Assembly (NCBI RefSeq): GCF_000337815.1
Contig: NZ_AOLN01000001.1
Coordinates: 124,001 to 188,000 of the forward strand
Length of the DNA: 64,000 nucleotides
Direction: 5' to 3'
Source of the DNA: Haloferax mucosum ATCC BAA-1512
GTDB taxonomy: Archaea; Halobacteriota; Halobacteria; Halobacteriales; Haloferacaceae
Shown: positions 9,960 to 15,402 of the stretch, piece after piece
Layout of the letters: every line of letters begins with the position of its first letter
Numbering within the stretch: position 1 is the first letter of the stretch
The notes under the pieces: generated by a model
Told to the model about the DNA's origin: nothing
Databases searched by the model: none
The model's input: the letters and a program-made list of their open reading frames with translations, nothing else
Position numbers and translations under genes: made by a program

Positions 9960-9974
9960 AAATAAATCTTATTT
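9960..9974. repeat. Short AT palindrome AAATAAATCTTATTT
   Basis: AAATAA at 9960-9965 and TTATTT at 9969-9974 are exact reverse complements around three bases. It lies in the 240-base gap between ychF and the CapA-like gene. It could be a regulator-binding site or a TATA-containing promoter. Confidence 0.35.
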
Positions 9975-10130
9975 CGCTATACAGAATCGGTGGCTACGGC
10001 CCAGCGACTTCGTTGGCTCTTTTCACCCGAAACCACCACTCAGGGAATCTCGCGCGGTTGGCTGACTCTCCGAACTATCGTTTCAGTATTCCTGCCAAGG
10101 GTTGACGCTCTCGGGGACCATCTGTAAGCT

Positions 10131-11245: not shown

Positions 11246-11617
11246 ATGTCTGAAACGCGGTCCCTCCTCGGTGTCGGACTCGCGGTCGCACTCGTGGCCG
11301 GACTCGTCTTTCGAATCGTCGGGCAACTCATTTTGGACCCGACGCGGCCGCTCGTCGTCGCGGGCGTGTTCGCGCTGGTGGTCCCCGTGATGTGGGTGCT
11401 CGCGGTTGGCGTCTTCCGATGGCGCGGTCTCTCCGGCGGTGCGAGGCTCGAGGCCGCGATACTGCTCGTCGTTCCGGGAATGCTCATCGACGCCGCCTCG
11501 ACTGCGCTGTTTTCCATGGTCTATCCGAACATGAGTCTCACCGCCGCGGGTCTCTTCGGCGGACTCCTCCTTCTCGCCTACGCGACGGTACTGGTTGCCG
11601 GATTCGTGGCTCGGTAG
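11246..11617 (+). CDS. Four-helix membrane protein, DUF5367-like
   Basis: 123 residues from ATG 11246; an in-frame ATG at 11204 would add 14 residues and cannot be excluded. Four hydrophobic helices fill the protein: LLGVGLAVALVAGLVF, PLVVAGVFALVVPVMWVLAVGVF, EAAILLVVPGMLIDAASTALF and LFGGLLLLAYATVLVAGFV. The segment between helices 3 and 4 (FSMVYPNM) resembles DUF5367 small membrane proteins; this is from memory. Function unknown. Confidence 0.7.
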   Translation: MSETRSLLGVGLAVALVAGLVFRIVGQLILDPTRPLVVAGVFALVVPVMWVLAVGVFRWRGLSGGARLEAAILLVVPGMLIDAASTALFSMVYPNMSLTAAGLFGGLLLLAYATVLVAGFVAR

Positions 11618-11774
11618 CGTCGGTCTCTATCCCGCTCTCTCCACCCTCCTCGTTCTATTCTGCTCTCTGGTCCCGCTCATACCCACACACTCTCCGCCTC
11701 GTCCGACCTTGCGCCCTATTTTCTCCCGAGCGACGAACGGGAAACCTGTTTGGCTCCGGCCGCGAGAGGCGACT

Positions 11775-12536
11775 ATGGACTACCGTCTCGACGAGATTGA
11801 CAGGGTGATCATTCACGCGTTGATGGACGACGCGCGGGGGACTTCAGCTCCGATGATTGCCGACGAGGTGAGCGTCTCTCCGGGGACGATTCGCAATCGT
11901 ATCCGTCAACTCGAAGACCACGGCGTCATCGAGGGGTACCACGCCAACATCGACTTCGAGCGAACTGGCCACCGATTTACGAACCTCTTCGTCTGTACCG
12001 CGCCGGTCCCCGAGCGCGAACGCCTTTCGACGCTCGTCAGAGAAATCTCCGGCGTCGTCAACGTCCGCGAACTCCTCTCCGGCCGGGGAAATCTCCACGT
12101 CCTCGCGGTCGGCAAAGACATGAACGACGTGACGCGAATCGGCCGTGAACTCTCGAATCTCGGCCTCGACATCGAAGACGAAAATCTCGTTCGCCGCGAG
12201 TCGTACGAGCCGTACAGCCCCTTCGGCCCGAACGAACGCCCCGGATTCGGCGCGCTGGCAGACGTCGTTAGCCTCGCCGGTGGGTCAGAAGTCGTCGAAC
12301 TCGTCGTCGCCGGCGACGCGCCAATCGTCGGCAGGACGCTCGGCGAAATCGGCGACGACGAACTACTCGACGACGATGTTCTCGTCGTCTCTATCGAACG
12401 CGACGACGACGTGCTCACCCCGCGAGGCGAAACCGGAATCGAACCGGACGATGTCGTGACGCTTCTCTCACGGGGTGGGGTCGGCGAAGCGACGATTCAA
12501 CTCTTTTCGGCTCCGGAATCGTCGGACGCGACGTAA
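11775..12536 (+). CDS. Lrp/AsnC regulator fused to an RCK_C (TrkA-C) domain
   Basis: 253 residues. Residues 1-60 form a winged helix-turn-helix (MDYRLDEIDRVIIHALMDD, then VSPGTIRNRIRQLEDHGVI). About 60-145 is an AsnC/RAM-like ligand domain. About 165-245 is a TrkA-C/RCK_C domain (EVVELVVAGDAPIVGRTLGEI and EPDDVVTLLSRG). RCK_C domains gate potassium and sodium transport and in several bacteria bind c-di-AMP, so the regulator may sense ions or that nucleotide; this is inference. It converges on the NhaC antiporter gene 27 bases downstream. Confidence 0.9.
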   Translation: MDYRLDEIDRVIIHALMDDARGTSAPMIADEVSVSPGTIRNRIRQLEDHGVIEGYHANIDFERTGHRFTNLFVCTAPVPERERLSTLVREISGVVNVRELLSGRGNLHVLAVGKDMNDVTRIGRELSNLGLDIEDENLVRRESYEPYSPFGPNERPGFGALADVVSLAGGSEVVELVVAGDAPIVGRTLGEIGDDELLDDDVLVVSIERDDDVLTPRGETGIEPDDVVTLLSRGGVGEATIQLFSAPESSDAT

Positions 12537-12562
12537 AAATCGAGAACAGCGGGCGATTCGCG

Positions 12563-14158
12563 TTAGTCCGAGGAGGAACCGAACACTGCGGGCGCCCCCA
12601 CGTCAGCGTGTTCGGAGAGGATGTACGCGGCGACGAAGAGCGTGACGACGCCGACGGCGAGCAACACGAACGGGCCGACCGTGTATCCGAAGAGCGTGAG
12701 CGAAGAGACGCCGTACCCGCTTGCGAGGAACAGACCCGTCGCAACCGTCCCGCAGAGAAGCGCGTACGGAATCTGCGTGTTCACGTGGTCAACGTGGTCC
12801 GCACCGGCGAACATCGACGACATGACTGTCGTGTCGCTGATGGGCGAACAGTGGTCGCCGAACAGCGACCCGGTGAGGATTGCCCCGGTCGCACCCGCAA
12901 GCGGCGCGCCAAGTTGGACCGCCAGCGGCATCGTGACGGGGAACATGATGCTCATCGTCCCCCACGACGTTCCGATGGCGAACGAGATGATGGCCGCAGT
13001 GATGAACACGACTGCGGGGAGCATGGGTGCCGTGATGATTCCCTGCGAGATGCTGACGACGTATTCACCGACGCCGAGTGCTTCGCTGACAGAGCCGATA
13101 GTCCACGCCAGCGAGAGGACGGCGATGGGGAAGATAACCATCTTGAAGCCCTCGAAGATGGAGTCGCTCACCGCTTCGAGTTCGACGCGGGCGTGGCCCA
13201 CGAGGATGGCGAGAAGGATTGCACACGCCGAGAAGACGCCCCAGAGAATCGCGTCTGCGGTGGCCGCACCCTTCAGCGCTTCGACGGGGACCTTCGACGG
13301 CCAACCGCCGGAGTAGAGCAGACCAAAGCCGGTGACGGCCACGAGCGCGACGATAGGTGCGGCGAAGTACCACCAGCGCGCATCGACGTGGTCGGGCGTC
13401 TCTATGTCTTCTTCGCGCGTCTCGATAAGCGGGTCGGCGTCGTCTCCGAGGACCTTCCCTTCGTTTCTCGCGCGGTCTTCTGCCTGCTTCATCGGGCCGA
13501 AGTCCCACTCCATCACGATGAGGATGAACACGAGCGTGACTGCGAGCAGACTGTAAAAGCGGAACGGGATGCTCTGTAGGAACACCACGAACGCGCTCTT
13601 ATCGACGCTGGAAATCGAACTGAGGTGGTCTCTGATGAGACCGACTTCGAAACCGACCCACGTCGAGACGACGGCGACGCTCACGACCGGCGAAGTCGTC
13701 GAATCCAGCAGGTAGGCGAGCTTCTCGCGGCTGATGTCGAATTTGTCGGTAATCGGCCGCATCACCGACCCGGTAATCATCGTGCTCGCGTAGGAGTCAA
13801 CGAAGATGAGCATCCCGAGGATACCCGTGCCAATCTCCGCCTGTTTTCGGGTCTTAATCCGGGCGATGATGCGCTGTGCGAGCGCGTTCATCCCACCCGA
13901 GAGGAATATCATCCCGAGCATCGCACCCGAGAGGAAGGTAAACAAGAGGAGTTTGCTGTTGAATGGTTCGGTCACGCTGTTGATGACCAACTGAAGGGAG
14001 TATGCCGCCCCACCGATAGGGTTCCATCCCACCAGAATGGTCGCACCTATCCAGATACCTGTGAAAAGTGACAGGAGTACCTGCCTGCTCGCCAATGTCA
14101 TTATAATGGCGAAAAGCGCCGGAAGCAGACTGATAATCCCGTATGTCGCTTCGGACAT
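12563..14158 (-). CDS. NhaC-family Na+/H+ antiporter
   Basis: 531 residues with about 12 to 13 hydrophobic segments. Family landmarks are FVDSYASTMITGSVMRP, SWGTMSIMFPVTMPLA and GSLFGDHCSPISDTTVMSS, all characteristic of the Na+/H+ antiporter NhaC/arginine-ornithine antiporter fold. A large charged cytosolic loop (about residues 225-255) links the halves. In a halophile it would export sodium using the proton gradient; the substrate could also be an organic cation. A TATA-like TTAACTTAG on the minus strand near 14185 supports the start. Confidence 0.88.
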   Translation of the reverse strand: MSEATYGIISLLPALFAIIMTLASRQVLLSLFTGIWIGATILVGWNPIGGAAYSLQLVINSVTEPFNSKLLLFTFLSGAMLGMIFLSGGMNALAQRIIARIKTRKQAEIGTGILGMLIFVDSYASTMITGSVMRPITDKFDISREKLAYLLDSTTSPVVSVAVVSTWVGFEVGLIRDHLSSISSVDKSAFVVFLQSIPFRFYSLLAVTLVFILIVMEWDFGPMKQAEDRARNEGKVLGDDADPLIETREEDIETPDHVDARWWYFAAPIVALVAVTGFGLLYSGGWPSKVPVEALKGAATADAILWGVFSACAILLAILVGHARVELEAVSDSIFEGFKMVIFPIAVLSLAWTIGSVSEALGVGEYVVSISQGIITAPMLPAVVFITAAIISFAIGTSWGTMSIMFPVTMPLAVQLGAPLAGATGAILTGSLFGDHCSPISDTTVMSSMFAGADHVDHVNTQIPYALLCGTVATGLFLASGYGVSSLTLFGYTVGPFVLLAVGVVTLFVAAYILSEHADVGAPAVFGSSSD

Positions 14159-14280: not shown

Positions 14281-15402
14281 TCAGACGACCGCGTCGTACG
14301 CGTCACGCATGATTTCGATTGCATCTCGGAGCGATTCGGTGTCCGTCGCGTAGGACAGACGAGCGTAGCCACGTCCGTTCTCGCCGAAGGCTTCGCCGGG
14401 GACGATGATGACGCCGCGGTCGATACACTCCTGTGTGAAGCCTTCCGGAACTTCCGGCATGGCGTAGAACGCGCCTTTCGGCGACGGAACGTGCAACCCG
14501 ATGTCTTCGAGTCCATCGACGACGAGGTCGCGGCGTTTGCGGAACGTCTCCGTCATCTCGTCGATGCGGTCTTGCGGGCCGGTCAGCGCCGCTTCGGCGG
14601 CGAACTGCGCGGGAGCGGACGCACACGCCTGCACGTACTGGTGAACGCGAATCATGCGCTCGATGCGACGCGACGAGCCGTAGACCCAGCCGAGTCGCCA
14701 GCCAGTCATCGAAAAGAGCTTCGACGCGGAGTTGACGACGACGACGTTGTCGGTGTCGGCGAACTCGATGGGTGAGCGGTGTTCGCCCTCGAAGACGGTG
14801 TACTCGTACACCTCGTCGGAGATGCACAACACGTCGTGTTCGTCGGCGATGCGGGCGAACTCCGCGATGTCCTCCGGCGGCGAGACAGCACCCGTCGGGT
14901 TGCCGGGGCTGTTCACGACGAACGCCGCGGTGTCGTCGGTGATGGCATCTTCGACGTCGGCGGGGTCGAGCGTCAGGTCCTCGCGGAGCGGCACGGGAAC
15001 CGGCGTCCCGCCCGCGAGTTTCGTCAGCGCGTCGTAGGAGACGAAGCCCGGGTCGGGGATGATGACCTCGTCGCCTTCGTTTACATGTGCCTCGATGGCG
15101 ATGTGGAGGGCCTCGCTCCCGCCGGCCGTGGCGATAACGTCGTCGGGGTTGAGGTCAACGCCTTGGTCGCGGCGGTGTTTGTCGGCAATCGCTTCGCGGA
15201 GGCTCAACAGACCCTTGTTCTCCGTGTAACTGTCGGCCTTCCCCGATTCGATGGCCTCGATAGCCGCCCGTCTGGCGTGGTTGGGTGCCGGAAAGTCGGG
15301 TTGTCCCAATCCGAGGTTGATGGCGTCTTCGTCCGCCGCCTCGAACACTTTGCGAATGCCGCTGATGGAAATCTGCTCCACTCGGTCGGAGAAGTGCGTC
15401 AT
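14281..15402 (-). CDS. Class I PLP-dependent aminotransferase (AspB-like)
   Basis: 373 residues, fold type I. Landmarks: SPGNPTG at 165-171 (substrate and cofactor contact), DEVYE at 196-200, the Schiff-base lysine Lys228 in NSASKLFSMTGWRLGW, and an Arg in YARLSYA near 350 for the substrate carboxylate. Closest to the AspC/AspB Igamma group that transfers amino groups between aspartate or aromatic/branched amino acids and 2-oxoglutarate. The exact substrate cannot be read from sequence. It lies on its own strand between NhaC and a small protein gene. Confidence 0.88.
   Translation of the reverse strand: MTHFSDRVEQISISGIRKVFEAADEDAINLGLGQPDFPAPNHARRAAIEAIESGKADSYTENKGLLSLREAIADKHRRDQGVDLNPDDVIATAGGSEALHIAIEAHVNEGDEVIIPDPGFVSYDALTKLAGGTPVPVPLREDLTLDPADVEDAITDDTAAFVVNSPGNPTGAVSPPEDIAEFARIADEHDVLCISDEVYEYTVFEGEHRSPIEFADTDNVVVVNSASKLFSMTGWRLGWVYGSSRRIERMIRVHQYVQACASAPAQFAAEAALTGPQDRIDEMTETFRKRRDLVVDGLEDIGLHVPSPKGAFYAMPEVPEGFTQECIDRGVIIVPGEAFGENGRGYARLSYATDTESLRDAIEIMRDAYDAVV

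Follow-up and report, generated by a model that had tools for sequence, protein, structure and literature searches.

A gene in a 64,000-nucleotide stretch of the Haloferax mucosum genome (hereafter the window) encodes a feast/famine (Lrp/AsnC) regulator that ends in an RCK_C domain resembling that of haloarchaeal TrkA. Haloarchaea maintain very high intracellular potassium. The reading that we favor, and consider reasonably probable, is that the RCK_C domain was captured from a TrkA and that the regulator controls potassium uptake, its likeliest target in this genome being the trkA-trkH genes on contig C18 and not the adjacent antiporter gene. At the level of the whole Lrp-RCK_C family, gene neighborhoods, described below with the family operator, point to potassium homeostasis.

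Table 1. Features of the window discussed in the text.
Feature	Position	Strand	Evidence or remark
Operator-like site, score 9.9, same intergenic region upstream of the PGA_cap gene, weaker of two	9971..9987	.	Operator scan
Operator-like site, score 11.8, 41-57 bp upstream of the PGA_cap gene	10074..10090	.	Operator scan
Degenerate remnant of an operator-like site in the regulator's own promoter, score 0.7	11729..11745	+	Haloferax relatives (L041/L042) score 11.4 at the matching place
Lrp-RCK_C regulator, Trh2-type fusion, 253 aa	11775..12536	+	ORF, Pfam, AlphaFold2 model, structure matches
AsnC-type winged helix, DNA-binding domain, residues 5-53	11787..11933	+	Pfam PF13404/PF13412; T38, R40, R42 and I43 invariant in 70 aligned rows
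RAM (ACT-like) domain, diverged, residues 67-149	11973..12221	+	Model order beta-alpha-beta-beta-alpha-beta; Lrp structure matches over 3-149
RCK_C (TrkA_C) domain, residues 160-249	12252..12521	+	Pfam PF02080, structure, pairwise scores, RCK_C tree (modest support)
PF03553 antiporter-family protein, convergent neighbor, without family operator upstream	12563..14158	-	Pfam, TIGR00931 score, operator scan
Class I/II aminotransferase, upstream of the antiporter gene on the same strand	14281..15402	-	Pfam; shares the locus with 4 of 6 Haloferax orthologs

The regulator and the probable origin of its RCK_C domain

The initial annotation had described an Lrp-type DNA-binding protein ending in a TrkA-C domain, and both Pfam and structure matches confirmed this. 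An ATG start codon lies at 11775, within a listed frame of 11595-12536 (+). Above the curated cut-offs, Pfam reported an AsnC-type HTH at residues 5-47 (E 8.7e-10) and TrkA_C (PF02080) at residues 173-231 (E 7.6e-10). Although no RAM model was reported by Pfam at E <= 0.01, the RAM fold is present, because residues 3-149 of the AlphaFold2 model matched Lrp/AsnC structures with Z up to 14.1; residues about 159-249 matched RCK_C domains with Z about 11. The model had a mean pLDDT of 86 and a pTM of 0.58, and its domain arrangement is thus unsure. The protein belongs to the Lrp/AsnC (FFRP) family by its winged HTH (PF13404 and PF13412, over cut-off) and by its RAM fold, and the position of TrkA_C, C-terminal to both, makes it a Trh2-type fusion.

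Pairwise scores and a short tree grouped the regulator's RCK_C with that of haloarchaeal single-RCK TrkA proteins; the tree had few columns and mostly weak support, the joint fusion/TrkA group reaching 84. The best match, 40 of 86 residues identical, was to a TrkA encoded near a fusion (L061). In the regulator's own genome, the TrkA at C18:311297 was the nearest of 19 non-Lrp RCK_C domains, with a score of 141 as against 76 for the next.

The initial annotation had also suggested that this domain might read c-di-AMP and had proposed a residue comparison with the KtrA and CpaA sites. We compared nine SaKtrA contact residues, as given in the available part of PMC7288161, with the 70 fusion rows. 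The hydrophobic type of I163 and I176 was retained. A170 was Gly in 42 of 70 rows and Glu in the window protein, I168 was R, E or D in 58, and R169 was Arg in 19; Leu stood at N175 in 69 and Gly at P191 in 68. Owing to a two-residue insertion, the residue set opposite N175 varies with where the gaps are placed (one alignment pairs it with an Asp of a TrkA). With two of nine positions retained in type and a third partly, we rejected a KtrA-type c-di-AMP site, and the c-di-AMP reading gained no support. The same contacts were mostly lost in the TrkA set (18 rows). The missing KtrA residues are not decisive, because a CpaA fragment, with a hydrophobic residue and a Gly near the N175 and P191 positions, differs there too. 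Since c-di-AMP is also bound by RCK_C domains that use different contact residues, the comparison makes the idea less probable at the level of sequence. A diadenylate cyclase (DAC) domain gene is encoded in the genome, and in H. volcanii the c-di-AMP targets were left to future experiments, according to the available part of PMC6741144.

Potassium genes and a paired operator around the fusion family

Relatives of the regulator at E <= 1e-10 occurred in 288 of 292 Halobacteria genomes, a count made at any coverage that includes some RCK-less Lrps. In a scan of named genomes, 16 haloarchaeal loci matched over 244-253 residues; the one other match, weak and partial (residues 1-144), was in Riemerella. 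The alignment set comprised 70 fusions; nine partial matches were left out, namely four rows of RCK-less Lrps, of which two represent a single gene, and five TrkA-type rows matched via RCK_C alone. The genome under study encodes a second Lrp-RCK_C fusion (C11:313128), 49% identical to the window protein, and two closely related RCK-less Lrps, 44-45% identical. An ortholog of the window protein (E < 1e-140) was found in 6 of 15 Haloferax genomes, while 4 of the 15 lacked any match at E <= 1e-45. Each of the five other Haloferax copies shares 87-89% identity with the window protein along almost its whole length. In the tree, five Haloferax orthologs formed a single clade (100/100), nested in a set in which trk/APC neighborhoods are common on several branches.

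We then compared 57 related loci (12 kb each, shorter at contig ends), all of which held a full fusion, with 40 control loci of 12 kb, drawn at random from 40 of these genomes; two random places that overlapped test loci were swapped for others in the same contigs. TrkA, TrkH or an APC permease was present in 44 of 57 related loci as against 1 of 40 random ones (Fisher p 1e-14), a p-value that is too small because the loci were hand-picked, one per genome, and share descent, some upstreams being nearly identical. Taken singly, TrkA was found in 22 loci, TrkH in 24 and an APC permease in 31, with 0, 1 and 0 in the control. TrkA was counted from its N-terminal part alone, which excludes the fusion's own RCK_C. 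The 13 loci that lacked all three include the Haloferax orthologs and several nearer relatives. Genes were called with our own composition-based script, whose start codons may be wrong, and neighbor families take their names from the Pfam matches of a single representative (AA_permease_2 with Usp domains, TrkH, Usp).

Universal-stress proteins (Usp) also lay beside the fusion in 21 of 57 loci and in none of the 40 random ones. Two of the 57 loci held a formate/nitrite channel with a Usp domain, a domain carried likewise by the APC representative.

Palindrome-constrained EM on 200-bp upstreams (65 of the 70, after removal of 5 near-identical ones) yielded a family operator, the 17-bp palindrome ATTtc.GAaTC.gaAAT, with a log-likelihood of 184. 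Five mononucleotide shuffles reached 26-32, which is too easy a control; four sets of 65 upstreams drawn from other genes reached 114-150, with different, GC-rich coding-like motifs. In-sample, 29 of the 70 fusion upstreams outscored all 479,400 control positions, and 52 passed a per-position threshold of 5e-4 where 6.4 were expected. On held-out data, the motif trained on a 38-row clade matched 13 of the 32 other upstreams at a 1% threshold. The reverse training, on those 32 rows, did not recover the motif and gave a different coding-like one that matched 5 of 38. A search for exact 5-mer inverted repeats in the promoters missed the degenerate palindrome, its highest count being 5 of 70 as against control maxima of 4-7.

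The most telling feature of the operator is its spacing, which the motif search did not impose. A primary site (score at least 9) was present in 46 of 70 upstreams, and in 31 of these a second (at least 5) lay at exactly 30 or 31 bp, as compared with a total of 4 over all other distances between 17 and 60; the upstreams being kin by descent, these are not 31 independent events. In the held-out rows, all 7 of 7 second sites lay at 30 or 31 bp. Strong pairs across the 57 loci numbered 24 at 30 bp and 17 at 31 bp, with no more than 7 at any single other spacing in the range 20-44, and control loci gave one pair at 30/31 bp in 480 kb. The 57 loci (678 kb) held 41 sites scoring at least 11 within the upstreams of the fusions themselves and 36 at other places, as against 8 in 479 kb of control. 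Some of these 36 preceded trkA-type and APC genes, several fell within called genes, and a few lay in the regulator's longer intergenic region. In 19 of 47 upstreams, a TATA-like element started 18 bp ahead of the 5' site.

The Lrp-RCK_C family may not have exclusive use of the half-sites, because two RCK-less Lrp paralogs in this genome (L037:1457 and L038:1427) have single operator-like sites, scoring 10.8 and 10.0, at 44 and 74 bp before the start of the match. None of the eight paralog stretches that we examined held a 30/31-bp pair.

Operator sites in the genome and the adjacent antiporter gene

The operator pattern had 93 matches as against 16 in a reversed control. Across the 3.37 Mb of this genome, eight 30-bp pairs had at most 3 mismatches (one in the control), and three 31-bp pairs had 3 mismatches each (none in the control). 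The sole 30-bp pair with at most 2 mismatches lay upstream of trkA-trkH on contig C18 (TrkA_N, TrkA_C and TrkH by Pfam), 54 and 84 bp away and with scores of 16.5 and 12.1; this pair was absent from the training data. The pattern did not extend to a general trk regulon, which we rejected: among 30 TrkH loci of 17 genomes only this genome's trkA locus carried the pair, with 0 of 28 from other genomes. Of 15 Haloferax genomes, 9 have an ortholog of this trkA (at least 89% identical) and 6 have the window ortholog, and the two coincide only here; the eight other genomes with the C18-type trkA all lack the window ortholog, and their trkA upstreams had no strong pair, with one weak pair (17.4) in G243. 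In H. larsenii and H. elongans, no C18-type trkA turned up. The five other genomes with a window ortholog had 4-8 pairs at 30 bp, as compared with 0-3 in the reversed control; the scan of these pairs found no trk target, and in G077 the best pair preceded the second fusion. The link between operator and trkA is therefore one case, and suggestive at the level of sequence. The second fusion of this genome (C11:313128) could be the one acting at the trkA operator.

In the window itself, no operator pair was found. The regulator's own promoter had no good site (best 0.9), as was also true of several of its nearest relatives. Of the two sites upstream of the PGA_cap gene, neither could be retained as a conserved target, four relatives scoring 4.5 or less. 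The strongest operator-like site of the window (14.1, at 1823-1839) is probably a chance match, lying inside the 5' part of the SRAP gene (1281-1982, -).

Elsewhere in the genome, a single operator-like site of 12.8 at C18:62737-62782 (G000, L194) starts 51 bp before the start of a gene for a protein of 172-173 aa, for which Pfam reported no match. In G292 (L265), a site of 18.1 stands at the same distance before such a gene, and pattern matches with similar letters occur in G077 and G261; this gene is a possible further target. A weak pair (13.1) on C6, on which we did not rely, precedes the gene of an antiporter-family paralog by 222-253 bp and lies next to a divergent IclR-type gene.

The antiporter gene and the regulator gene are convergent, as first reported, with a gap of 26 bp. 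The neighbor had been called an NhaC sodium-proton antiporter, and this held in part. It belongs to the PF03553 superfamily (185 bits, cut-off 23); because it falls below the cut-off of the NhaC equivalog TIGR00931 (53.8 bits as against 370), NhaC is a superfamily label for it and not a proven function. The antiporter adjoins the regulator in 5 of 6 Haloferax orthologs; at one of these five, a contig end leaves only a fragment of 83 residues. Among the 57 loci, its relatives at E <= 1e-12 occurred in 3, all Haloferax, in a search that a distant PF03553 protein could escape; the aminotransferase and PGA_cap each occurred in 4. The stretches for the two Haloferax orthologs without the aminotransferase in Table 1 do not reach its position. 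In one Haloferax locus (L041, G077), the regulator lies directly beside the aminotransferase with no antiporter between them.

No family operator was found upstream of the antiporter (best scores 3.4-3.8) or of the aminotransferase (0.3-0.5). With the genes convergent and the adjacency seen only in Haloferax, we rejected nhaC as a target. The adjacency looks like a late rearrangement, since five Haloferax orthologs form one clade within a set that has trk/APC neighborhoods on several branches. The proposal that the regulator couples transcription to ion status was thus well borne out in its general form, for potassium, and found no support for the adjacent gene as the target.

A proposed mechanism, its alternatives and known systems

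From these computed features we infer the following mechanism. The regulator would have acquired the C-terminal RCK_C of a haloarchaeal TrkA, the gating subunit of a potassium channel. Its dimers probably bind the 17-bp palindromes, given that the third helix keeps T38, R40, R42 and I43 unchanged in every one of the 70 aligned fusion rows. Sites often come in twos, three helical turns apart, from which a tetramer or larger assembly on one DNA face may be deduced. They would sit at the regulator's own promoter and at neighboring trkA/trkH or APC permease promoters, just downstream of the TATA-like element; since that element starts 18 bp before the 5' site, the sites would lie over the transcription start, which suggests repression, relieved or strengthened when RCK_C senses a potassium-linked signal. 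RCK_C, rather than the diverged RAM, would be the signal input. A tentative extension is that channel gating and transcription of the channel read one signal via a shared module, the regulator's RCK_C binding the ligand of TrkA or pairing directly with TrkA by RCK_C dimerization. If this were so, the state of the gating ring would set the amount of channel made.

Other readings of the same data deserve consideration. RCK_C might be a dimerization module only, with RAM sensing amino acids to control APC permeases and the neighboring aminotransferase as in ordinary Lrps. The APC permease is indeed the commonest neighbor (31 of 57), the aminotransferase is next door in Haloferax and the RAM fold is intact. 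Yet Pfam reported no RAM match at E <= 0.01, the RAM of Trh2 was judged likely non-functional (in the available part of PMC4236453), the APC representative carries Usp domains and the permease substrate is only presumed to be an amino acid; nor would one predict TrkA (22 of 57) and TrkH (24 of 57) as common neighbors, and we regard this account as unlikely. It is also conceivable that the operator is general to Lrp paralogs and that few targets remain to the window protein, a relic whose own promoter has lost its site. Weak own-promoter sites in the window clade and single sites before two RCK-less Lrp matches would fit, but 87-89% identity of the five other Haloferax orthologs nearly throughout, the invariant T38, R40, R42 and I43 and the want of 30/31-bp pairs in eight paralog stretches make it quite improbable.

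We give very little credit to the idea of a BusR-like regulator that senses c-di-AMP and represses or activates the adjacent nhaC. The plan of BusR is alike in having a winged HTH and an RCK_C, and the Foldseek match to 7b5t spans 264 columns at an rmsd of 26.6, so that the domains agree and their arrangement does not. The c-di-AMP-bound KhtT was among the RCK_C structure matches (7ahm, Z 10.8), a diadenylate cyclase domain is encoded, and the antiporter adjoins in 5 of 6 Haloferax orthologs. Against it, the KtrA contacts are mostly lost (a loss that the CpaA fragment makes non-decisive), neither the antiporter nor the gene preceding it has an operator, the genes are convergent, and close antiporter relatives are absent from loci outside Haloferax. 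Potassium-linked regulation through the captured RCK_C thus remains our preferred reading.

The Lrp-TrkA_C fusion is itself not new. The available part of PMC4236453 describes Trh2 (VNG1285G) of Halobacterium salinarum NRC-1, reported in 2014, as an FFRP with a fused TrkA-C, restricted to Halobacteriaceae and proposed to answer K+/NAD+. The window protein has the same plan, but the NAD part of the proposal does not follow for it, because Pfam reported no TrkA_N (NAD) domain; our data shift the earlier proposal toward the RCK_C domain alone. In the literature, as far as the sources consulted go, we found no operator, ligand or trk regulon for an Lrp-RCK_C fusion, part of which the Trh2 ChIP-chip targets (PMC4236453) may already include, and no transcription factor tied to haloarchaeal trk operons. 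What the present analysis offers is a candidate family with a defined operator, made of 17-bp palindromes that often come in pairs at 30-31 bp, together with a likely target promoter and a domain for which a ligand may be sought.

BusR of Streptococcus and Lactococcus, as presented in the available parts of PMC8517857 and PMC5919688, is a wHTH-RCK_C factor that reads c-di-AMP. It resembles the window protein in joining a winged HTH to RCK_C, and exerts transcription-level control of osmolyte uptake. BusR binds a bipartite DNA site as a dumbbell-shaped tetramer, a parallel to the operator pair described here. BusR has a GntR-like HTH and a coiled-coil ruler, in contrast with the AsnC-type HTH and RAM of the window protein, which is thus not of the BusR type, and the residues of its c-di-AMP pocket are mostly not retained, judging by the KtrA comparison. 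In single-RCK TrkA/KtrA gating subunits, the likeness lies in RCK_C (the 40 of 86 residues shared with the best haloarchaeal TrkA), while the place of their RCK_N is taken in the window protein by HTH and RAM.
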